The position numbers were made by a program, and so were the translations under genes. Shown here in pieces: positions 19,457 through 30,647 of a DNA stretch of 64,000 nucleotides. This DNA is from Thermodesulfobium narugense DSM 14796. GTDB lineage: Bacteria; Thermodesulfobiota; Thermodesulfobiia; Thermodesulfobiales; Thermodesulfobiaceae. A model generated the notes under the pieces. It made no database searches. It saw only the letters and a list, made by a program, of their open reading frames with translations, and was not told the origin of the DNA. The stretch lies in contig NC_015499.1 of the NCBI RefSeq assembly GCF_000212395.1, positions 399,501 through 463,500 of the forward strand, in the 5' to 3' direction. Each line of letters begins with the position of its first letter. Positions within the stretch are counted from its first letter, which is position 1.

Positions 19457-20233
19457 TTAGCTGTTAATTTCCTGTGAACTAAAGTCAATTAATCCTGCCT
19501 TTCTCTTCTGTCTTAGTCTATAACTATCTCCCTTGATGTTTATGATATAACTGTGATGAATAAGTCTATCTAGTATAGCTGTAGTTAAGCCTTCATCATT
19601 GTTGAAAATCTCTTTCCATCTGATAAAAGAAAGATTTGTGGTTATTAATATAGAGCCCGTCTCATATTTCTTGTTAACTATCTGAAACAGTAGGTTTGAT
19701 TGTTTCTCATTGAGCTTAAAGTATCCAAACTCATCAATAATAAGCAGCCCTGTAAAATTTATAGACTTCTTTATGTATTGCTCCAGTCTATTTTGAGATA
19801 GTGCAGTATCTATTTGTATAATCAAATCAGCCATTGTTACGAACTTTGTCTTTATCCTCTTCTGTGTAGCAGCATAACCTATAGCTACAGCAAGATGAGT
19901 TTTTCCTACACCAGGAGGCCCAATAAGGAGAATGTTTTTTGTCTCATCAATAAACCTCATTGATAGAACTTCATTTATCAGTGTTTTATCAACTGATGAA
20001 GATGAAAAATCAAAGGTGTCTATAGTTTTTATCTTTGGAAAACCTGCAAACTTCAGCATAGTCTGTTTTGCTCTTTGATTTCTTGCTTCATATTCAGCTT
20101 CAAGCAGAAGACAAAGGAATTCAGCAAAGGATAAACTCTCTTTAGCTGCTTTATCTGCAAGAAAACTATAGTTTTCTAATATGCCCTTTAATTTTAGATT
20201 TATGCAGTATTCTTCTATCCTTGAATTAAGCAT
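19457..20233 (-). CDS. istB: IS21-family transposition helper ATPase IstB
   Basis: This 258-residue AAA+ protein has Walker A GPPGVGKTHLA (about residues 105-115) and Walker B GLLIIDEFGY. The N-terminal helical domain (LNSRIEEYCINLKLKGI) matches IstB/DnaC-like ATPases. It assembles on target DNA and directs IstA there. It overlaps istA by eight bases, the normal IS21 arrangement, which gives translational coupling. All motifs look intact. Confidence 0.95.
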   Translation of the reverse strand: MLNSRIEEYCINLKLKGILENYSFLADKAAKESLSFAEFLCLLLEAEYEARNQRAKQTMLKFAGFPKIKTIDTFDFSSSSVDKTLINEVLSMRFIDETKNILLIGPPGVGKTHLAVAIGYAATQKRIKTKFVTMADLIIQIDTALSQNRLEQYIKKSINFTGLLIIDEFGYFKLNEKQSNLLFQIVNKKYETGSILITTNLSFIRWKEIFNNDEGLTTAILDRLIHHSYIINIKGDSYRLRQKRKAGLIDFSSQEINS

Positions 20234-21299
20234 AGTTGTCTTCTCCTATTAAGAGCTTTTCATACTCAGAAAGGTTTGTGTAGTAAGGATGAAAGCTTTT
20301 GTCCATGTAAACTTCTTTCTTACTGTTTTTATTACTATCTTTAATATTATTTTTATTACTATCTTTTTCACTTACAAATAGATTATTTGGTACTTTACTT
20401 AAATAACTTAGTTCCTCTTTTAACATATCAAAGGGTTTTTTGTTTGTTGTTGCATGAATCCTGTTATTTGCACTGGTAAGCCAGGAAAATATATAGGCAT
20501 TTAAGAGATCTGGTGTTATATCTATTGGCGTATTCTTTAGCTTTGCCTTCAATGGTTTATAAAAGTTATTTTTTAGATATAGATTGAATCTTTCAACCTT
20601 TCCCTTGGTTTTAGCTCTGTAGGGCTTACATAGTTTTGGTATAAATAGACCTTTGGAAAAATCAAGAAATTTGTTGTTAAAGCCATGTTCATTTTGCCCA
20701 TATTTATCTCTTTGAATTACTACAGATTTTAGGTTATCATAGAGTATAGTCTTTGGTATCCCGCCAAAGTAGTCAAACGCTTTTATGTGGCAGGATTGGA
20801 ATATGTCCTGCCACATGTTGTCTGTAAAGTAAACAAAAGCTGCTCTTGAATAGGATAAAACCATAACAAAAGCATAGATTGGCTTCTTTCCACTTCTAAC
20901 AGTTGTCCAGTCAACTTGAGCTTGAAAGCCTTTATCTGTTTCGAACCTGATAATTTCCTCATTTTCTTTTTTATTTAGCTTTAGTTTGTCATAAACTGAT
21001 TTTGTGTATTCCTGAAGTATTCTTAGACTTCCTTCATATCCTATATCCTTAATTTCATTCAAAAGCACTGTAGATGGAATTCTGTCTGGATGAGCCTGAC
21101 TTATCCTTTTGTTTATGTAGTCTTTGAATTTATCAAGTTTTGAAGGATAAGTCCTTTTGCTGTAGGGTTCTAGATCCTTCTCCTTTAATCTCTTTGAGAC
21201 AGTCCGTCTATTAATGCCCAACATATGGGCAATCTTTCTTATGGAAACTCCCTGTGCATACAGTGTGTGAATCAAAACAAACTCCTCCTTGCTAATCAT
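20226..21299 (-). CDS. istA: IS21-family transposase IstA
   Basis: This 357-residue transposase has an N-terminal helix-turn-helix (VSIRKIAHMLGINRRTVSKRL) and an rve/DDE core: first Asp in AQVDWTT, second in ILYDNLKS, Glu in GKVERFNLYL. It cuts and joins the element ends. The length is within but at the low side of the family range, and the C-terminus includes a Lys/Asn/Ser-rich stretch (DSNKNNIKDSNKNSKKE). The reading frame is open and paired with an intact istB, so the copy could be active. Confidence 0.93.
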   Translation of the reverse strand: MISKEEFVLIHTLYAQGVSIRKIAHMLGINRRTVSKRLKEKDLEPYSKRTYPSKLDKFKDYINKRISQAHPDRIPSTVLLNEIKDIGYEGSLRILQEYTKSVYDKLKLNKKENEEIIRFETDKGFQAQVDWTTVRSGKKPIYAFVMVLSYSRAAFVYFTDNMWQDIFQSCHIKAFDYFGGIPKTILYDNLKSVVIQRDKYGQNEHGFNNKFLDFSKGLFIPKLCKPYRAKTKGKVERFNLYLKNNFYKPLKAKLKNTPIDITPDLLNAYIFSWLTSANNRIHATTNKKPFDMLKEELSYLSKVPNNLFVSEKDSNKNNIKDSNKNSKKEVYMDKSFHPYYTNLSEYEKLLIGEDNYA

Positions 21300-21399
21300 T
21301 TAGCTCTCCCTTATATGAATTTGAGAGAGCATAACACACAAATTCTACTGGTGCACTTTTACTGTGCGTTGGTGGTGCAGTTTAGCACGGCGGATGACA

Positions 21400-21474
21400 T
21401 TTCTTGCTTGCTTTTTTATATCTTTTTGCAATTTCACTCACCACTGATTTTCTTTCCTTCATCGTTAACCCCAT
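21400..21474 (-). pseudogene. 5' fragment of the interrupted ISNCY-like transposase
   Basis: On the minus strand, GGAGG precedes ATG at 21474, which opens MGLTMKERKSVVSEIAKRY and runs 25 codons to KASKK exactly at the IS21 boundary. This is the typical N-terminus of the transposase family whose catalytic part lies at 18396-19403. Confidence 0.7.
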
Positions 21475-21527
21475 TTCTAGCCTCCAGAGTTATAGTAACT
21501 ACTATTCTAAGAGACTTTTTGTTTTCA

Positions 21528-21585
21528 TTTAGATTTTTTATTTGAGGCAACGATTGTATTTCGTTTAGATTTTTGATGAAGCAAT
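21528..21585. repeat. Right inverted end of the decayed transposon
   Basis: The reverse complement reads ATTGCTTCATCAAAAATC..., then CGTTGCCTCAAATAAAAAAT, paralleling the two-unit left end. Confidence 0.6.
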
Positions 21586-21692
21586 TCGTATTATTTACAA
21601 AATGGATCTGTGGACTTATAATGAACAAAACATGTGTTTAAAAAAGTAGTAAAATTGAGAGTTTTTTATCTAAAGTAAGGTTAAAGGAAGTT

Positions 21693-21720
21693 TTATTTGC
21701 TTGTGTGGAAAAGCAAATAA
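21693..21720. promoter_or_regulatory. Perfect 10-bp inverted repeat upstream of hicBA
   Basis: TTATTTGCTT, an eight-base loop, then AAGCAAATAA. It is not followed by a T-tract. It could be an operator for the HicB DNA-binding protein or an attenuator. The rest of 21586-21851 shows no gene. Confidence 0.35.
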
Positions 21721-21851
21721 AGTGTCTGAGTTTATATATTCGATTATGCTCTGTAAGCAGGGGGTAAATGCAATTGGCAGAGCTATTATTTATATGTACG
21801 AAAAGCCTTTGCTTTAACTTAGAAAGGTTTGTTCGTAAAAGGAGGAGAAAG

Positions 21852-22082
21852 GTGTATAATATTGAGAAGGTGAATCATTATAATGTTATATTGGAACCTC
21901 AAGAAGAGGGTGGGTATACTGTAGTTGTTCCAGCTCTTCCTGGGTGCATTTCTGAGGGAGAGACTATTGAAGAAGCGATTGAGAATATAAAGGAAGCAAT
22001 AGAGCTTTATCTTGAGAGTCTTCAAGAAGATGGGCTCCCAATTCCTGAAGATAAAAGTATAGTAAAGGAAGTGGTTGTCTGA
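21852..22082 (+). CDS. hicB: HicB antitoxin
   Basis: This 76-residue HicB-fold antitoxin contains HYNVILEPQEEGGYTVVVP, ALPGCISEGETIEEAIEN and a terminal segment ending DKSIVKEVVV. The start is GTG at 21852, with AGGAGG about seven bases upstream; a longer frame from 21768 has no ribosome site. HicB forms a degraded RNase H-like fold and blocks HicA. Here the antitoxin precedes the toxin, the reverse of the classical hicAB order. A truncated duplicate is at 18146. Confidence 0.88.
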   Translation: MYNIEKVNHYNVILEPQEEGGYTVVVPALPGCISEGETIEEAIENIKEAIELYLESLQEDGLPIPEDKSIVKEVVV

Positions 22083-22793: not shown

Positions 22794-24449
22794 TTACTCC
22801 ACGCTAATACTCCCACTTATCACTCCTGCATTGAAATTTATACTGACATTTGATACCTCTCCATTTATTGGCGATTTTATCTCAAGCCTTGATATGTGCT
22901 TGTTGTTATTTTCAATCTGTGCGCTTAATTTTGCCTGTTCGGACTGAATGCTTGAAATCTCAAGCTCTTCGTTTGCCTTTAGATATGCTATATCACTTTC
23001 TATATTCTTTACTGCCTGTTCAGAGATTAAGCCTTCAGAATAAAGCTTTTTGTTTAACTCAAGTTCTTTATATTTGCTATCAAGCTTTTCCTTGTAGCTT
23101 GCTTGTATCTTTGAGATAGAGCCTTCAAGCTTGGAGTAATCTATGTTATTCTTTTGGTTTTCTAAATTTAAAGCGTCCTGTTCTTTTGATGATATTACTA
23201 ATACATCGCCTTTTTTAACCTTCTGGCCTACTTTTACTTTTATATCTGAAATATCCATTGCGTTAAAGCTTATTTTAAATTTATTTAAATCTTCTGTTTT
23301 AGTATCTTCTTTATTATATTTTTTATCATTGTAGTTGTTTTCCTCTGCGTTTGCTACATTTTCATTATTCTTTTTTATCTTTTTCTCATATCTTATTACA
23401 AGCTTTCCTGTTGTTATGTGAGTATTCTTTAGCCTGTCCAAGTCTTCAATCCTTGCAAATTGTAACTCTAAACACTTCTGAGCTAACTTTATCGGGTTGT
23501 ATTCTGTAGGATTTGATGCTATATGATAGTTTTCATCGTCTGTATAAAGGTTTCCTGTTATGAATACACTTGTATCAGGGTCTTTTATTGTGCTATCTAG
23601 TTCAGATACTATTTTGTGTAAATTCGTCCTGTAAACGCTTATATTCTTGCTTGTTATCAATATATTATCCCCTGTCTTCTCTTCCATTGAAAACGGCTGT
23701 ATGTTATCAGTTAAGCCTTTACCTATGCTATAAAGATATCCTGTCTCTGGGTCTTCTACTACTACAGAATTGGCGCCAAGCCATCCAATAGCCTTAAAAT
23801 TCTTTTCTATTTTTTCGTGTGTAACGTTGTGTATGCCTTTTACGTAAACGATTGTTTCTTTTTCTGATGCTTCATATTTCACGTCTGACAATGCGCCAAT
23901 AGGGTTCTGGATGATTGAGTGGATTATTTTTTTGTAGCTGTCTGTTGGAAGACATATTACAAAAAGCAATATAAAAACTCCTGCAAGTATTCTCTCTGGC
24001 TTACTATCCTTGATGAAGCCTCTAAATACCGCATCTTTTTTCGTAATAAGTGAAAACCTGATAAATGCTGGATAAAGTAGCCTTACGCCTGTCACAGAAA
24101 AGCTCTCCAGTATCAGATGAGAAATATATCCTATCTCTAAACTGAGTAGGTATGTAGTGTTTAATTTGAATATAAAAAATACAAGATTTAATATTACTGA
24201 GTAGATTAGATAACACAATACTGAGTTTGTAAAATCTATCACTTCGTTTCGACTAATATTAAGTCTATTAAATACTTTAAAACTTGAGCATTTTCTTATT
24301 TTGAAAAATATTTCTGGTATTATACATATTAGGTTTCCTAATACTGCAAATAAGTAAAAAAATATGTCTATCTTTACGTCGTATGGTAATAGTACTCTTA
24401 CAATCTGTATAAATAATAGTGAAAAGGCTATATGAGAGTAAATACTCAT
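22794..24449 (-). CDS. YdjM-like membrane domain fused to HlyD-type adaptor hairpin
   Basis: Residues 1 to about 185 form a polytopic domain with SHIAFSLL near the start and GYISHLILESFSVTGVRLLYP, typical of YdjM/DUF457-like inner-membrane proteins. A periplasmic-type region of about 200 residues follows with no recognised family. The last 150 residues form a membrane-fusion hairpin: a half lipoyl domain (VKVGQKVKKGDVLVI), a long coiled coil, and the return half lipoyl (RLEIKSPINGEVSNVSINF). The usual adaptor beta-barrel after it is absent. The gene overlaps the TolC-like gene by four bases. I infer an inner-membrane anchored periplasmic adaptor with a novel anchor. Confidence 0.72.
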   Translation of the reverse strand: MSIYSHIAFSLLFIQIVRVLLPYDVKIDIFFYLFAVLGNLICIIPEIFFKIRKCSSFKVFNRLNISRNEVIDFTNSVLCYLIYSVILNLVFFIFKLNTTYLLSLEIGYISHLILESFSVTGVRLLYPAFIRFSLITKKDAVFRGFIKDSKPERILAGVFILLFVICLPTDSYKKIIHSIIQNPIGALSDVKYEASEKETIVYVKGIHNVTHEKIEKNFKAIGWLGANSVVVEDPETGYLYSIGKGLTDNIQPFSMEEKTGDNILITSKNISVYRTNLHKIVSELDSTIKDPDTSVFITGNLYTDDENYHIASNPTEYNPIKLAQKCLELQFARIEDLDRLKNTHITTGKLVIRYEKKIKKNNENVANAEENNYNDKKYNKEDTKTEDLNKFKISFNAMDISDIKVKVGQKVKKGDVLVISSKEQDALNLENQKNNIDYSKLEGSISKIQASYKEKLDSKYKELELNKKLYSEGLISEQAVKNIESDIAYLKANEELEISSIQSEQAKLSAQIENNNKHISRLEIKSPINGEVSNVSINFNAGVISGSISVE

Positions 24450-25051
24450 AAAATCATCTCCATTTCTTTTATTTTCTTGTCCTCTTCTGCCTGTTCAATC
24501 CTGCTTCTTATATCAAGTAGTTCTGTATTTACTCTTTCTAATTCGTCTCTTGTAATAAGCCCTGCATCGTATCTATTTTGGATAATTTTCGCCTGTGTCT
24601 CTTTTAGCTTTAGCTGTGCGTTTAGATTTTCGATTAAGTTCTTTAGCCTTTTTATTTCTGCTAACTTTGTGTTATATTCAATAGTCAATTTCTTTTTTAT
24701 ATCAGTCAGATTTGCCTCTTTTTGCTTTAGTTCTATCCTTGCTAATTCAATCTTTTCTCTGTATGTAAAAGTATTTAAAAATATATCCGTTAAATTTCCT
24801 GATACTGATATGCCTGTAGTAACGTAACCTTTTGCTGGGTCATATCCTGAGTGATAATGTATTTCTGGTTCCGATGCCTTCTTTAACTCTTTTATCTGTA
24901 TTGCAAGGTTTATCTTAGCTTTCTCATATTCATTTTTTGCTGTGATGTACTGATTGTTCTTGTTTATATAGTCCTCAAGCGTCACAATCTCATTTGCAAA
25001 GGCTGTATGGGAGGCTAAAAATAAAAACAATATAACTAAGATTAACTTCAT
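24446..25051 (-). CDS. Half-size TolC/outer-membrane-efflux-like protein
   Basis: This 201-residue exported protein has a signal peptide (MKLILVILFLFLASHTAFA) followed by alternating helical and short beta segments. The phrase IIQNRYDAGLITRDELERVN is characteristic of the helical hairpin of TolC-type factors (RYxAGLIT...). TolC proteins carry two such repeats in over 400 residues; this one carries one, so six copies rather than three could build a channel. It overlaps both neighbours by four bases (ATGA-type junctions), so stoichiometry is probably coupled. Confidence 0.7.
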   Translation of the reverse strand: MKLILVILFLFLASHTAFANEIVTLEDYINKNNQYITAKNEYEKAKINLAIQIKELKKASEPEIHYHSGYDPAKGYVTTGISVSGNLTDIFLNTFTYREKIELARIELKQKEANLTDIKKKLTIEYNTKLAEIKRLKNLIENLNAQLKLKETQAKIIQNRYDAGLITRDELERVNTELLDIRSRIEQAEEDKKIKEMEMIL

Positions 25052-26130
25052 ATAGTTACTCCTAAAAATATTTTATTGTTTTGTATATTTGCGGTTAAAA
25101 AGCCTGATTGTCCTGATATCTTAAATATCCTTACTCCTGCCTTAACCGTAAAGCTTTTTTCTTCATAAGAAATACCTAAAAGCTTTCTATCATCGTTGAT
25201 TGAAAGATAAATATTAGGTTCTATGTGTCTATTTTGCCTTGTGATATTCGTATAAAAGCTTACAGTTGTGTTATTTCCTTTATCATCTTCTAAATCCTTC
25301 TCTATTGTTACTGATATAGTGCTGTTTCCTGTGGTCTGATAAGCAAGTGAAAAAGAGTTGTTAAAATCTGCTATGTCAAAATATCTGTCTAACATGAAGT
25401 TTGAATATAGCTTGTTTGACTTCACAATCGTGTGTCTAATATTAAAATCAAATATCTTTTTGTAGCTTGATAGCTGGTATGTAGGATAGCCTTTGTTGAA
25501 GTTAGCGTATATATCAGATTTGATAGTCTTAAAAAAAACGCTCTGACTTATTAACATTGTCTTCTTTTGTGTAATCTCTGAATTTACTGTTGAGAAATAG
25601 CTTTCAAGCTTAAATCTTTTGTGTTCAAACTTGTTATATATGCTGCTTCCTGTGATAGCTTTCGTTCGCTTGTCAAATTCTGTTCCAAGTGATGTCTGTA
25701 GTTCTCCTGTAACGTATCTGGTTCCAAAGATAACATTCTCTCTCTTTCTCTCTTTGTCTGTGCTGTCTATATAAAAGTAGTGTATTCCGTCCTCTTCTGA
25801 ATTGTCAGCAATTGCATAATAATATCTTGTCAGATACTTTGCCTTTGGCTTAGTGAATAATGTTCTCTTTTCTTCTTCTGGATATTCGTATACTCTACCT
25901 GTGAAATACTCAAAGCCTTTCTCTTTCTCTCTAAATGACAAGCCTTGTGCGCTTCTCGTGTAGTGTCCTGCCTGTATGTAGCTGTCTCCTATTGTATAAC
26001 TCATAAAATCATCTTCAGCGCTAATATTTACTTTATTTTTATTTATTTCTAAATTATTTATATCAGCATAAGATATATTATTTAGGGATAAAAGTATAAA
26101 AATTAAAAAAGTTATTAACAACTTATCCAC
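25048..26130 (-). CDS. Exported beta-rich, probable outer-membrane protein
   Basis: This 360-residue protein has a signal peptide ending near SYADI. The rest is dominated by short alternating polar/aromatic strands (YLTRYYYAIADN, FNIRHTIVK, TISVTIEKDLED) and ends in a strand with terminal Ile (IFLGVTI), as in beta-barrels. No family recognised. The GTG start at 26130 lies within an array of DnaA-box-like repeats, because the box complement GTGGATAA supplies the start and second codon. It may form the outer-membrane pore or a surface partner of the half-TolC protein downstream. Confidence 0.6.
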   Translation of the reverse strand: MDKLLITFLIFILLSLNNISYADINNLEINKNKVNISAEDDFMSYTIGDSYIQAGHYTRSAQGLSFREKEKGFEYFTGRVYEYPEEEKRTLFTKPKAKYLTRYYYAIADNSEEDGIHYFYIDSTDKERKRENVIFGTRYVTGELQTSLGTEFDKRTKAITGSSIYNKFEHKRFKLESYFSTVNSEITQKKTMLISQSVFFKTIKSDIYANFNKGYPTYQLSSYKKIFDFNIRHTIVKSNKLYSNFMLDRYFDIADFNNSFSLAYQTTGNSTISVTIEKDLEDDKGNNTTVSFYTNITRQNRHIEPNIYLSINDDRKLLGISYEEKSFTVKAGVRIFKISGQSGFLTANIQNNKIFLGVTI

Positions 26131-26153
26131 AACTTATCAACAAATTATCCACA
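26112..26153 (+). repeat. Four DnaA-box-like 9-mers at exact 11-bp spacing (array 1)
   Basis: TTATTAACA (26112), TTATCCACA (26123), TTATCAACA (26134) and TTATCCACA (26145) follow one another on the + strand every 11 bases. Two equal the strong E. coli DnaA box. The array fills the gap between two minus-strand genes and covers the GTG start of the downstream one. Confidence 0.75.
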
Positions 26154-26156
26154 ATT

Positions 26157-26894
26157 TTAGATGATTTTTCTGAAATACTGATAGTAGATAAATCTAAACA
26201 AGAAAAACATTGCGCCCATACATCCAGCAAATATATACGTGTCTTCGTCGTTTAATCCAAGTGCTATAAATCTAAGCATTATAAAAATAAATCCAAATCC
26301 TAAAAGTATAGGAATGATTGATATATAAGTAGCGCCGTCGTATCTTAATGAGTGTAGCGGCTCGCCCTCAGACAATCGCCTTGCTAACTCTTCAGCGCCG
26401 TTTATGTCGCCGCAGGCAAGCGTGTATATGTGTCTTGCCACGTCAGATGAAATCTTATACTTTTTTGAAATGTATTCTATTATTCTATTCTTTCGGCTTG
26501 TCAGCTTTATCTCTTTCCCGTGCTTAAAAAAGGTAGGGATAATCTTCCCAGTAGGAAGGGTTGTGCAACAAACATAAACATCATTTTTATCAAGCATTGC
26601 TTGAATGAATATTGCAAAGCTATCTGTCAGTTTTTCTGCGTGATTTATGTAAAATGTATAATTTAGACTTTTTAGCTCTTCTGCCATATCGTATATGTTT
26701 AAACCTTTTATCTCTATGTTTAAATTTTTCAATACCTGTCTTATACAAGTGCTTGGTGGTGTAGGATTATCAATATATACTCCTGTTTTATTTTTCATTA
26801 ACTTTTTAATATATCTTTCCCCTAACCCTGTTTTATCTATAATGAAATAGAATGTCCCCAAGATATTTTCTCCCTTCTTAATGTTAAAAGCCAC
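26157..26894 (-). CDS. Membrane protein with degenerate AAA-like domain
   Basis: In this 245-residue protein, residues 1 to about 180 resemble an ExeA/TniB-like AAA domain. The P-loop position reads DKTGLGERYI without the Lys-Thr, and the Walker B position reads YTFYINHAEKL without the acidic pair. A winged-helix-like part (RIIEYISKKYKISSDVARHIY) follows, then two hydrophobic helices near the C-terminus (IIPILLGFGFIFIMLRF and FAGCMGAMFFLFRFIYY). ATP hydrolysis seems unlikely. It may be a cytoplasmic scaffold or assembly factor anchored in the inner membrane. It stands 31 bases after the secreted-protein gene. Confidence 0.6.
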   Translation of the reverse strand: MAFNIKKGENILGTFYFIIDKTGLGERYIKKLMKNKTGVYIDNPTPPSTCIRQVLKNLNIEIKGLNIYDMAEELKSLNYTFYINHAEKLTDSFAIFIQAMLDKNDVYVCCTTLPTGKIIPTFFKHGKEIKLTSRKNRIIEYISKKYKISSDVARHIYTLACGDINGAEELARRLSEGEPLHSLRYDGATYISIIPILLGFGFIFIMLRFIALGLNDEDTYIFAGCMGAMFFLFRFIYYQYFRKII

Positions 26895-26925
26895 TACTGC
26901 GCAGTAGTGGCCTATGCATTTCTCC

Positions 26926-27837
26926 CTATTTAGAGATTAAGTTTATTGTCTGAAGAGCTAATGTAGTATTGGCATTAGGGATTATGGTCTCTCTTACAGT
27001 CTGATATCCTGATTTGCTAACTCTTATAGGTACCTGTAAGATGCCATTAGCTGGTACTACTAAGCTAAACTCTCCATTGGCATTGGTTACAGTCTCAGGG
27101 TAATTCGTTTCTCTTAATGGAGCTGTAACCTTTGCATTAGCTACTGGGTTACCTATTGCGTCTAATACCTGTCCTGTGATTGTTGCTGTGGTAGTAGGTA
27201 GTACGTCTACAGTCACGTTCTCATTTGCGATATTTGTAGTGTCTTTTGTTACACTAAACTGTCCTGTGGCTGATGTATTCTTTATACCGTGTCCTAACAC
27301 TCTGACATAGTAGGTATAGGTAGATGTATCACTTGGCTTAATAGCCTTTAGCGTATAAGTTCCGTCTTGTGCTGTAGTTGCCTTATCTACTACATATTTG
27401 GACATTGTAGAGCTTCCAAAGCGTGGGTCTTCCTTCATTAGTTGGACTTCCAAGCCTCCTATCCCTGTCCCTAAGCTGTCAGTTACTTTACCAGTAACGT
27501 TAACCGTTCCTCCTGCTGAAGGTATAGCCTTTATAGATACGTTTTTGTTTTTGGTAGTGATAGATACGGATTTGTCAATTCCAACATATCCAGTCTCTTT
27601 AACCTCGATTTTATAAGTGCCTGAATTAACTCCTGTAAATAGAAACCTTCCTGCGCTGTCAGCGGTTACCTCCTGAAGAACATTTCCGTTACTATCCTTC
27701 AGGTCTACAGTTGCGCCTGATAGTGTCGCGGCTGTCTCACTGTCTACAATCTTTCCTTTGATGTCCATTGCATTTGCTGAAGTTGCAATAATTAACAAGC
27801 TTGAGCCAATCATTAAACCTCTTAATACTTTGTTCAT
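26926..27837 (-). CDS. Secreted protein with three CarboxypepD_reg/Ig-like domains
   Basis: A signal peptide (MNKVLRGLMIGSSLLIIATSANA) is followed by three beta-sandwich domains at about residues 24-100, 112-205 and 215-300. Each has the pattern GxVxDxxGxxLxGAxVxL...TxxxGxFxLxxxxxGxYxIxV of carboxypeptidase regulatory-like domains. There are no cysteines and no cell-wall anchor motif. It is the first gene of the minus-strand operon and is probably the exported or surface-displayed substrate, or an adhesin/pilin-like subunit. GGAGG lies just upstream of the ATG. The 251 bases upstream hold only AT-rich promoter-like sequence. Confidence 0.75.
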   Translation of the reverse strand: MNKVLRGLMIGSSLLIIATSANAMDIKGKIVDSETAATLSGATVDLKDSNGNVLQEVTADSAGRFLFTGVNSGTYKIEVKETGYVGIDKSVSITTKNKNVSIKAIPSAGGTVNVTGKVTDSLGTGIGGLEVQLMKEDPRFGSSTMSKYVVDKATTAQDGTYTLKAIKPSDTSTYTYYVRVLGHGIKNTSATGQFSVTKDTTNIANENVTVDVLPTTTATITGQVLDAIGNPVANAKVTAPLRETNYPETVTNANGEFSLVVPANGILQVPIRVSKSGYQTVRETIIPNANTTLALQTINLISK

Positions 27838-28088: not shown

Positions 28089-30647
28089 TTAAGAATTTAG
28101 AACCTTGAGAAGTTCACTCTTTGGCATTGGCTTGTAGAACAAAAATCCCTGATAGTAATCACAACCCATTGACTTTAGCGTTTCAAACTGTTCTACAGTT
28201 TCTACGCCTTCTGCAATGGTTTTTATATTTAGAGACTTTGACAGGGCAATAATTGCATTTGTAACGTTTTTTGTATCTTTATCGCTTAAGTTTCTTACAA
28301 ACGATATGTCTATTTTTACGAAGTTTACTTTTAACTTTGATAGATAAGAGAGGCTTGAATATCCTGTTCCAAAGTCATCTATGCTAAAAAATACATTAAA
28401 TTTCCTTAAGTTTTCTATAAGATTTCTTACGTATTCAAAGTTTTCTAAAAAGGATCTTTCTATAATTTCTATGTTTAATATGTTGTGAGAAATATCTATG
28501 TTTATCTTGCTTTTTGCCTTTCTCTGGGTTAGTTTTGAGATGAGTCTCTGGGCTAAGTCTTTTCTGAATAGGCTTTTGATAGAAAGATTTACAGAGACTG
28601 GAAAGCTAAGTCCTAGTTCACTTATATCGTCTAAAACATTGTCGATTATTAAATCTTCAGCATCTACAATATATTGGCCTTCTTCTAACTCTTCTATGAA
28701 TTCAGATGGCAAAAGAATTTTATTGCCCTTTTTCCAACGCATCAGAGCTTCCATCCCGACTATATTTTTGTCTTTATCTACGTATGGCTGGTAGTAGATA
28801 ATAAATTCTTTATTTGAAACTGCCTGTTCTAACTCAGACCTTAGTTTTAGCTTTCTTATGGTATCTTGTTCTATATCTTTTTTGAAAAAACCAATTTGAT
28901 TTTTTCCTTTTCTCTTTGCATCTGATAGCGCAATGTGAGCTCTTTTTAGGATTTCAGATGAATTGTTTGCATCTTTTGATATAAATTCTATTGCTAGATT
29001 GAATTCAAGAGAAATATGAATATTGTTTATGTTATAAGGTTTGGTGAGTTCCTCTAAAATTTTTTTGGAGAGTTCAAGAGCATATTCTTTAAACCTTAGT
29101 GGTCCAAAAAGTACTCCAAATTTTTCTGATTCAAGCCTTGCTACTACATCGTTTTTTTCAGTTATTTCTTTTAGTCTGGATGCTATCAGACTGAGCATTT
29201 TATTTCCCGTGTCAAAACCAAAGGCTTCATTTATCTTTTTAAACCCAATTGGATTAATTAATATTAGTGCCCCAATTTGATTTTCATTTTGGGCTTTCTG
29301 ACAAAATTTTTCTACCTCTTTAATAAAATAGTTATTATTTGGCAAATTTGTGATGGGATCGAAATAAAGTGCTCTTTCAAGACTTTTTAGGAGTTCATCT
29401 TCTTTTTCTAATATCTTGCCAACAGCTATGTAGTTGGTAATCTTATCTTTTTTAAAATAAGGCATAATATTTACCAAAAAGTCCTTTGTAGAATTATCCT
29501 TGAGTTTGTAGTTTATTATTCCGGAGTAATTTCCTTCTAAAGAAAGTTTTTCCTGAATAACTCTTTTAATGTCTTCTTTACTTTCAAGATAGCAAAAGTG
29601 AATAATATTTTTTCCAATAATTTCCTCTCTTAAGTACCCAGAAATTTCCAGGGCTCTATCGTTTGCGTATATTATGTTAAAGTTTTCATCTAGTATACAT
29701 ATGAATTCAAAGCTTTTGTTTATTGCAGAGAGAATAAGTTTGTGCCACTTTTCGCTTTCTATTTTTTCAAGAGCAAATGACATATCGAGCTTTATCTCTT
29801 CTAATAGGTGTAGGTGATCCTTATCGAATGTATTTGGAATAACGTCGTGTAAAAGCAAGATATATTCAACTTTGCCCTTTTTCAATATTGGTATTGAACA
29901 GGCTGAAGAAATATTGAATTTGTCGAAGAAGTCGTGCCAGTAGTGAGTAGATTCAAGCTTTGATATCCGAGGGATAGTGCTTACTTCTTTTGTGTGATAA
30001 GCTCTTGAAACTGTACCTACGCCATAAGGAGTATCCGGATCTGCGCCAATTTTTAAGGCTTTTAGCGCATCCTCCAACTCTTTTGTCTTAGCTTTTGTAT
30101 AAAGTTGACTAAACAGTTTGTTCTCATCTATATATCCTATGGCACAATCTAAGTAACCAACCTCATCAATAGCTATTTCGCAAATCTTTTCGAGAAGCTC
30201 TTCTTCATCTTCAATTCTTATTATTAACTGATTTATTTGGCTTAAAGTCAGGAATAACTTTTCAAATGATTTTTCTTTCGTCCTATCAAGGACCATGATC
30301 AAGCCAGAATATTCGTTCTTATAAACTATTGTGTGGGCAAAGAGAGAGACGGGAACTAGAGCTTTGGTTTTGGACTTTAGGTAGTGTTCTGTATATTCAG
30401 CTTTAAAGATTTCCCCTTGAACTCTTCTTTTTATGTGGGATTTGACTTCTTCAATATCTGAAGCTACCATTTCTATAGCACTTTTCCCGATTAACTCAGC
30501 TTTGCTGCCATATTCTAAAATTTGCGCCATTTTTTCGTTTGCAAAGACAATTTTTGCATCTAGCCCCTGATAGATATATACTCCAAAAACAGATGAATTT
30601 ATAAGTGATTGAAACGCTTGTGAATTAAACAAGACCTTGTTCTCCAT
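28089..30647 (-). CDS. PAS-GAF-PAS-GGDEF(degenerate)-EAL cyclic-di-GMP phosphodiesterase
   Basis: This 852-residue cytoplasmic sensor has PAS (about 8-115), GAF (about 145-290), PAS (about 300-415), GGDEF (about 425-585) and EAL (about 600-850) domains. The GGDEF signature is replaced by LESEKF, so cyclase activity is unlikely. The EAL domain keeps MEAL, NLSIKSLF, DDFGTGYSS, KIDISFV, AEGVET and QGFLFYKP, so it should hydrolyse c-di-GMP. There is no membrane helix. The two PAS domains and the GAF domain suggest control by a small ligand or redox signal. It may regulate the neighbouring export system or surface polysaccharide, but nothing in the sequence proves this. Confidence 0.92.
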   Translation of the reverse strand: MENKVLFNSQAFQSLINSSVFGVYIYQGLDAKIVFANEKMAQILEYGSKAELIGKSAIEMVASDIEEVKSHIKRRVQGEIFKAEYTEHYLKSKTKALVPVSLFAHTIVYKNEYSGLIMVLDRTKEKSFEKLFLTLSQINQLIIRIEDEEELLEKICEIAIDEVGYLDCAIGYIDENKLFSQLYTKAKTKELEDALKALKIGADPDTPYGVGTVSRAYHTKEVSTIPRISKLESTHYWHDFFDKFNISSACSIPILKKGKVEYILLLHDVIPNTFDKDHLHLLEEIKLDMSFALEKIESEKWHKLILSAINKSFEFICILDENFNIIYANDRALEISGYLREEIIGKNIIHFCYLESKEDIKRVIQEKLSLEGNYSGIINYKLKDNSTKDFLVNIMPYFKKDKITNYIAVGKILEKEDELLKSLERALYFDPITNLPNNNYFIKEVEKFCQKAQNENQIGALILINPIGFKKINEAFGFDTGNKMLSLIASRLKEITEKNDVVARLESEKFGVLFGPLRFKEYALELSKKILEELTKPYNINNIHISLEFNLAIEFISKDANNSSEILKRAHIALSDAKRKGKNQIGFFKKDIEQDTIRKLKLRSELEQAVSNKEFIIYYQPYVDKDKNIVGMEALMRWKKGNKILLPSEFIEELEEGQYIVDAEDLIIDNVLDDISELGLSFPVSVNLSIKSLFRKDLAQRLISKLTQRKAKSKINIDISHNILNIEIIERSFLENFEYVRNLIENLRKFNVFFSIDDFGTGYSSLSYLSKLKVNFVKIDISFVRNLSDKDTKNVTNAIIALSKSLNIKTIAEGVETVEQFETLKSMGCDYYQGFLFYKPMPKSELLKVLNS

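Follow-up and report, generated by a model that had tools for sequence, protein, structure and literature searches.

In type I secretion, the adaptor has a transmembrane (TM) helix, a hairpin, a lipoyl domain and a beta-barrel, and the TolC duct is a trimer of two-repeat protomers. Many plasmids carry no recognised transfer genes, and by what means they spread is an open question. Tyrosine-recombinase-like proteins such as TcpM and MobK can be relaxases (PMC12857230, PMC8152469); a 2025 review of type IV secretion systems confirms such relaxases and mentions neither TolC nor HlyD (PMC12857230). Here we describe a five-gene operon (g1 to g5) of the hot-spring bacterium Thermodesulfobium narugense DSM 14796, found in a stretch of 64,000 nucleotides (NC_015499.1, positions 399,501 to 463,500; the window in the following). 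Its core (g2, g4 and g5) is a diverged copy, located in the chromosome, of a module that many different plasmids carry. In this module a membrane AAA protein (AAA-TM) and a YdjM protein are accompanied, in most diderm members, by a half-size TolC. The homology of the operon to this module is well supported, and its function is what we infer. In the open-access literature (subscription papers and preprints lay outside the search) we found no description of the module, which is apparently undescribed.

An earlier note on the window, made without database searches, had proposed an envelope operon of five genes here; all five open reading frames (ORFs) are indeed present on the minus strand (Table 1), and the overlaps that it gave for the last three genes are exact (4 bases at g3/g4 and again at g4/g5).

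Homology of the core genes and conservation of the operon

According to hhalign, residues 1-354 of g5 align with the plasmid YdjM family at E 2.9e-22 (2.1e-17 for the g5 periplasmic domain alone), g2 aligns with the plasmid AAA family at E 2.6e-13, and g4 with plasmid half-TolC profiles at E 3.7e-5. As a control, hidden Markov models (HMMs) made from proteins of plasmids (plus those of genome G078, see below) and from no Thermodesulfobium protein were run on 323 ORFs and as many shuffled decoys. They found g5 at E 4.7e-36, its periplasmic domain at E 2.6e-29 and g2 at E 1.1e-17, and the next best E-value was 0.049 (8e-5 for other real P-loop proteins). These sequence comparisons show g2 to be a homologue of the plasmid membrane AAA protein. 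They likewise show that g5, over its first two thirds, shares ancestry with the plasmid protein that combines YdjM with the periplasmic domain; plasmid ancestry of both genes is almost certain. For g4, homology to the plasmid half-TolCs is suggestive, the main grounds being fold, size and gene position.

Direct searches with g2, g3 and g5 gave nothing like them beyond Thermodesulfobium (the one outside match was an ordinary adaptor). A PF04307 scan for long YdjM frames led to G078, which has, in this order, a membrane AAA gene, a YdjM gene with an extra periplasmic domain, and a tyrosine recombinase; its YdjM protein led to a Nitrosococcus plasmid and thence to 105 plasmid records, a count that includes ordinary short YdjM genes. 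Other long YdjM frames of the scan (e.g. L032-L041) were unlike g5 by eye and were set aside.

Four Thermodesulfobium genomes were compared (G000, the source, and G001, G002 and G003); the GTDB phylum Thermodesulfobiota has this one genus. All five genes are syntenic in G003 (locus L014) and G001 (locus L015) with identities of 72-89%, and because the order is identical at this level of identity in two further genomes, the arrangement is not due to chance. Every pair among the three species gives, for each of the five genes, a ratio of nonsynonymous to synonymous substitution rates (dN/dS) of 0.09-0.19, reflecting strong purifying selection, and the genes are therefore functional; g1 is the most conserved of them (0.09-0.11). 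The draft genome G002 contains only a decayed C-terminal piece of g5 with frame breaks (L016:5168-5509), g1, g2 and g3 were not found in it, and the system has probably been lost there. The operon lies on a single contig of 1,898,865 bp and is thus chromosomal, not on a plasmid.

Profile searches assign no Pfam family to g2. Its Walker A motif reads GLGER where GxGK[ST] is expected, and NH replaces the DD/DE acids of Walker B; both motifs are lost in all three Thermodesulfobium species that have the operon, and GK[ST] is kept in 13 of 13 aligned AAA relatives. At the C-terminus there are two TM segments bearing the family signature R[YF]xxxGL, and the double-TM signature of the plasmid AAA-TM proteins (R[YF]..GLG...Y..GG) is also present in g2. 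The TTG at 26861, behind AGAAGGGAGA, is a likelier g2 start than 26894 because the G003 and G001 homologues begin there.

In the same profile searches, g5 matches YdjM (E 1.8e-8) and RND_mfp/lipoyl (E 8e-7). It consists of a YdjM-like TM domain, the periplasmic domain shared with the plasmid proteins, a lipoyl half, an alpha-hairpin and the other lipoyl half, directly after which it ends; the C-terminal beta-barrel/membrane-proximal return seen in classical adaptors is missing. Truncation by the nearby insertion sequence (IS) element was ruled out because the C-terminal ...ISGSxSVE is common to all three species. The YdjM metal residues are gone in all three as well (PDxD lost, the HRxxxH stretch deleted); H6, PDxD and HR...HS are kept in 16 of 16 aligned YdjM relatives.

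The g4 protein (201 aa) matches OEP at E 3.5e-16 with one repeat only, which is complete: a helix, a two-stranded beta-hairpin, a long helix, the tip (YDAGLIT) and a helix. Its single-sequence AlphaFold 2 (AF2) model, with a mean confidence score (pLDDT) of 87, is likewise one TolC repeat, and the best PDB matches of the model are OprM/TolC (Foldseek E 0.01-0.1, probability 0.9-1.0).

Three CarboxypepD_reg stretches (immunoglobulin (Ig)/transthyretin-like; E 1e-28) and a Sec signal were identified in g1, and a search of a 60-genome sample gave no g1 relative outside Thermodesulfobium. For g3, with a signal peptide and a beta-rich sequence, we found no Pfam family and no relatives outside the genus; its single-sequence AF2 model (pLDDT 35) is structurally unusable, and its amphipathic-strand content shows no excess over shuffles. 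Both g1 and g3 are genus-specific additions to the operon.

The earlier note's descriptions of g1 (secreted three-domain Ig-like protein), g2 (membrane protein with a degenerate ATPase-like domain), g4 (half-size TolC-like protein) and g5 (YdjM-HlyD fusion) are thus borne out. It had also called g3 a probable outer-membrane protein: the signal peptide and the beta-rich character stand, the outer-membrane assignment was not confirmed, and we consider an outer-membrane protein, possibly a barrel, an even bet.

At the place of the inverted repeat between g1 and g2 (Table 1), all three species have a hairpin, with the same sequence in G003 and a different one in G001. The repeat resembles a weak terminator or attenuator and was missed by a consensus terminator scan, which requires five T; a hairpin kept at this place would fit an attenuator, through which g1 is probably made in excess. 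An Rfam search gave no match. The gene order on the minus strand is the PAS-GAF-GGDEF-EAL gene, g1, the hairpin, g2, g3, g4, g5, a HicB-like gene and IS21-like genes. We note that the 3' side, with a HicB-like antitoxin and an IS21-like istA/istB pair (19457-22082), is different in G001 and G003.

Table 1. Features of the operon and its surroundings (window positions), and recombinase::AAA fusions at other loci
Feature	Position	Strand	Remarks
g1	27837-26926	minus	303 aa
Perfect inverted repeat GCCACTACTGC/GCAGTAGTGGC + TTTT	26886..26911	minus	between g1 and g2
g2	26894-26157	minus	245 aa; with the likelier TTG start: 26157..26861
g3	26130-25048	minus	
g4	25051-24446	minus	
g5	24449-22794	minus	
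g5 residues 170-357	23379..23942	minus	unnamed periplasmic domain defining the plasmid family
PAS-GAF-GGDEF-EAL gene (cyclic di-GMP, c-di-GMP)	28089..30647	minus	directly upstream of g1; order kept in G001
Recombinase::AAA fusions	L108-L110, L112-L118, L120-L122, L124, L128, L152		adjoining a long YdjM gene
Further recombinase::AAA single-chain fusions, likewise adjoining a long YdjM gene	L062:135-1640, L073:6278-7852		

The AAA-TM/YdjM module on plasmids

The module was found on plasmids of Thermus, Nitrosococcus, Allochromatium, cyanobacteria, Bacteroidota, Fusobacteriota and one archaeon (e.g. Thermus pL4C, Nitrosococcus pNHAL01, Allochromatium pALVIN01 and Synechocystis pSYSX), and also in Desulfobulbia. 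A tblastn search with the Allochromatium AAA-TM protein gave 25 plasmid records; according to coordinates and annotations, AAA-TM is accompanied in each of the 25 by a YdjM gene that lies at most ~3 kb away and on the same strand, and all 25 are typed non-mobilizable (these plasmids are related and do not make 25 independent cases). Among 80 named genome loci, 32 of the 41 long YdjM genes (≥330 aa) have AAA-TM within 3 kb and on the same strand, vs 3 of the 34 short ones (Fisher p 1e-9, a value not corrected for phylogeny since the two groups differ in phylum, the short genes being mostly from Bacillota); in at least two of these three short genes (L120, L124) the contig stops within the gene. 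The AAA-TM signature is present in 5 of 386 sampled genomes (3 genera), and is therefore rare outside plasmids.

Several versions of the module can be told apart. Thermus pL4C encodes AAA-TM, a 236-aa single-repeat TolC (OEP, E 1.7e-9), a small lipoprotein-like protein and a 544-aa YdjM-adaptor fusion, which aligns with g5 through the lipoyl motif (hhalign E 2.4e-9). Half-TolC, AAA and YdjM are found together in Nitrosococcus, Allochromatium, Methylobacter, Fusobacteriota and Desulfocapsa (the last with a tyrosine recombinase just upstream), and Flavobacterium has half-TolC, a recombinase::AAA fusion and a YdjM-hairpin protein. Such fusions also occur in Haliscomenobacter and 16 further loci, nearly all from Bacteroidota (Table 1); in the L062 and L073 fusions, the core motifs of phage integrases (HxLRH, LGH, Y) are intact by eye. 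The cyanobacterial version contains AAA, YdjM, a TrwB/HerA-like ATPase, a lipoyl-hairpin adaptor and a TolC-like protein, sometimes with a nuclease. A GIY-YIG-like nuclease insert was seen in the TrwB/HerA-like ATPase of Stanieria (L063:9049-10509, annotated) and of G194 (L072:3729-5147, by eye). Plasmid pTBMP1 of Thermococcus barophilus, an archaeon without an outer membrane, carries an AAA-TM/YdjM pair (L074:6998-8850) followed by an Ig-like protein with NEW3/CarboxypepD_reg domains, and no TolC. Exported Ig-like proteins recur beside the module (a CarboxypepD_reg stretch in Thermococcus, BACON domains in Thiospirochaeta).

Searches of other collections gave little. A phage origin was rejected, as no relative was found in viral contigs and the PHROGs matches, to hydrolase and unknown families, were all weak; in a phage genome collection the AAA protein found no match and the YdjM protein two short YdjM-domain matches. 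A YdjM match at OR844994.1:145530-145850 belongs to the record "Staphylococcus phage SA 1306 Kay". Such a match is unexpected in a staphylococcal phage, and the record is possibly mislabelled or a mixed assembly. With defence-system libraries, g2 and g5 gave no match, the plasmid AAA protein matches Mads8 weakly, and the TrwB-like ATPase matches the Mads8, DndH and HerA ATPases, i.e. the P-loop superfamily.

We interpret the plasmid module as a machine that spans the envelope and is linked to the DNA of plasmids; that it transports DNA is a hypothesis. A tyrosine recombinase (often fused to the membrane AAA protein) or a TrwB/HerA-like pump would feed DNA into the YdjM-anchored adaptor, and the channel beyond it would be of TolC type, built from half-size subunits. 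That the module represents a new class of VirB-free DNA translocators on non-mobilizable plasmids, with the Thermodesulfobium operon as its motor-less, surface-protein-exporting descendant, is a tentative idea that we hold to be less probable than its negation. A trans-envelope module on plasmids without recognised transfer genes, tied to a recombinase or a DNA-pump ATPase, makes the question of their spread testable.

Function of the operon and rival explanations

We propose, with a probability of about 0.5, that the operon descends from the plasmid-borne envelope-spanning module, has been domesticated in the chromosome and now handles g1 without a motor of its own. Domestication (conduit kept, enzymes now scaffolds, job changed) is the simplest account because the catalytic motifs are lost, TrwB is absent, and g1 and g3 have been added. 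The lost catalytic residues in intact genes under selection suggest that the channel is reused for a surface job, most likely the handling of g1. The earlier note had thought of g1 as a substrate or a surface structure, still the likeliest role for it. The g4 and g5 proteins probably form a physical conduit: the YdjM helices would anchor g5 in the inner membrane, and g5, assembled into a hexamer, would act as an adaptor with its hairpins docked on g4. One g4 chain corresponds exactly to half of a TolC protomer, so that it would take about six of them to restore the 12-stranded channel, and we see the chances of a g4 hexamer as balanced. At the base of the conduit, g2 would serve as a non-hydrolysing membrane scaffold, and g3 would be an exported accessory of the channel. 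The g1 protein, whose role as substrate or surface partner of the conduit we rate at a little under even odds, would be exported by Sec and then carried to or held at the cell surface by the conduit, as an adhesin or a surface-layer component; its handling is perhaps controlled by the adjacent c-di-GMP enzyme, and control of the whole operon by this GGDEF-EAL protein through c-di-GMP is doubtful. The machine would act without its own pump driven by nucleoside triphosphates.

Several points weigh against this proposal. Export of g1 by the conduit, or its binding to the conduit, is a conjecture, and neither g1 nor g3 has a sequence counterpart in the plasmid module. Profiles relate g4 only weakly to the half-TolCs of the plasmids (HMM E 0.015), its hexameric assembly is only inferred, and the c-di-GMP link is one of gene adjacency only. 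In addition, the operon could be served in trans by a pump from another locus, as several adaptors and full TolCs are encoded in the genome.

The last point leads to an ordinary tripartite exporter with g5 as adaptor, g4 as duct and an ABC, RND or MFS pump from elsewhere in the genome. The last 150 residues of g5 match RND_mfp/HlyD models, and the motifs of the hairpin and the TolC tip (LYSEGLIS, YDAGLIT) are canonical in appearance; however, g5 lacks the C-terminal beta-barrel and has a YdjM domain, not a single helix, at its inner-membrane end. The earlier note had found no ABC or RND pump in the operon, which holds, and had considered that a standard pump gene might have been deleted here; none was seen beside any relative inspected, and we regard an ordinary exporter as unlikely. 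A static tether between the two membranes, or an S-layer/envelope scaffold without transport, would suit two dead enzymes, adaptor and TolC hairpins able to span the periplasm, and a strongly conserved multi-domain beta protein (g1), but g4 keeps the full beta-hairpin and channel tip motif and the plasmid relatives resemble active machines, which leaves this explanation improbable.

Continued DNA transfer with a motor supplied from elsewhere would follow the putative role of the plasmid module, where AAA-TM is fused to a tyrosine recombinase (the 16 loci and the Haliscomenobacter and Flavobacterium plasmids) or, in cyanobacteria, adjoins a TrwB/HerA-like ATPase, with nucleases nearby. Yet g2 has lost its Walker motifs and the YdjM domain its metal residues, the operon has no recombinase or nuclease gene, and it sits in the chromosome with an upstream neighbour shared with G001. 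Moreover, TrwB_AAD_bind (PF10412) is absent from G000, G001 and G003 and present in 7 of 14 control genomes, and we take continued DNA transfer to be a long shot. The lost catalytic residues, the g5 piece in G002, and the IS21-like element and HicB near the 3' end might also be expected of a decaying, functionless plasmid remnant; this has almost no chance of being right, as all five ORFs are intact in three species and the dN/dS values rule out decay.

The domesticated operon would show what remains of such a machine after loss of the motor, still kept by selection, and the half-size TolC next to an adaptor is a plausible model of the single-repeat channel that gene duplication made into TolC.

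Comparison with known systems

The earlier note could match the operon to no named secretion system. Profile searches and neighbourhood comparison across genomes agree, as no known system matches all five proteins; the claim of no match does not extend to the core, as g2, g4 and g5 have plasmid relatives. Like type I secretion and tripartite efflux, the operon has a duct of the TolC family and an adaptor in which a hairpin is combined with lipoyl halves. It differs from them in having no ABC, RND or MFS pump gene, in a substrate candidate (g1) that carries a Sec signal, in an adaptor fused to YdjM, and in the single repeat of g4. The adaptor agrees with the type I form in part: lipoyl and hairpin are there, YdjM stands where one TM helix would be, and a C-terminal beta-barrel part is missing. 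The likeness to type IV secretion and conjugation lies in the plasmid relatives, i.e. the TrwB_AAD_bind/HerA-like ATPase of the cyanobacterial ones and the tyrosine recombinase of others; no VirB part or relaxase was recognised near the module, the duct is TolC-like, and the three Thermodesulfobium genomes with the operon lack a coupling-protein (TrwB/VirD4-like) ATPase. Membership in type I or type IV secretion therefore fails on the defining features.

The short YdjM proteins of the E. coli type (PF04307; 150-225 aa) resemble the N-terminal domain of g5, but as a rule they do not adjoin AAA-TM and they keep the catalytic residues. In the plasmid module the membrane AAA protein and YdjM with its periplasmic domain are homologous to those of the operon, and a half-size TolC is present in several phyla. 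Unlike the operon, the module is without g1 and g3. Walker A and the YdjM PDxD...HRxxxHS residues are intact in its members, and the plasmids on which these lie also encode recombinases, nucleases or a TrwB/HerA ATPase. In the Thermus version, likewise without a pump, the YdjM protein ends in a lipoyl-hairpin-lipoyl adaptor, as g5 does.

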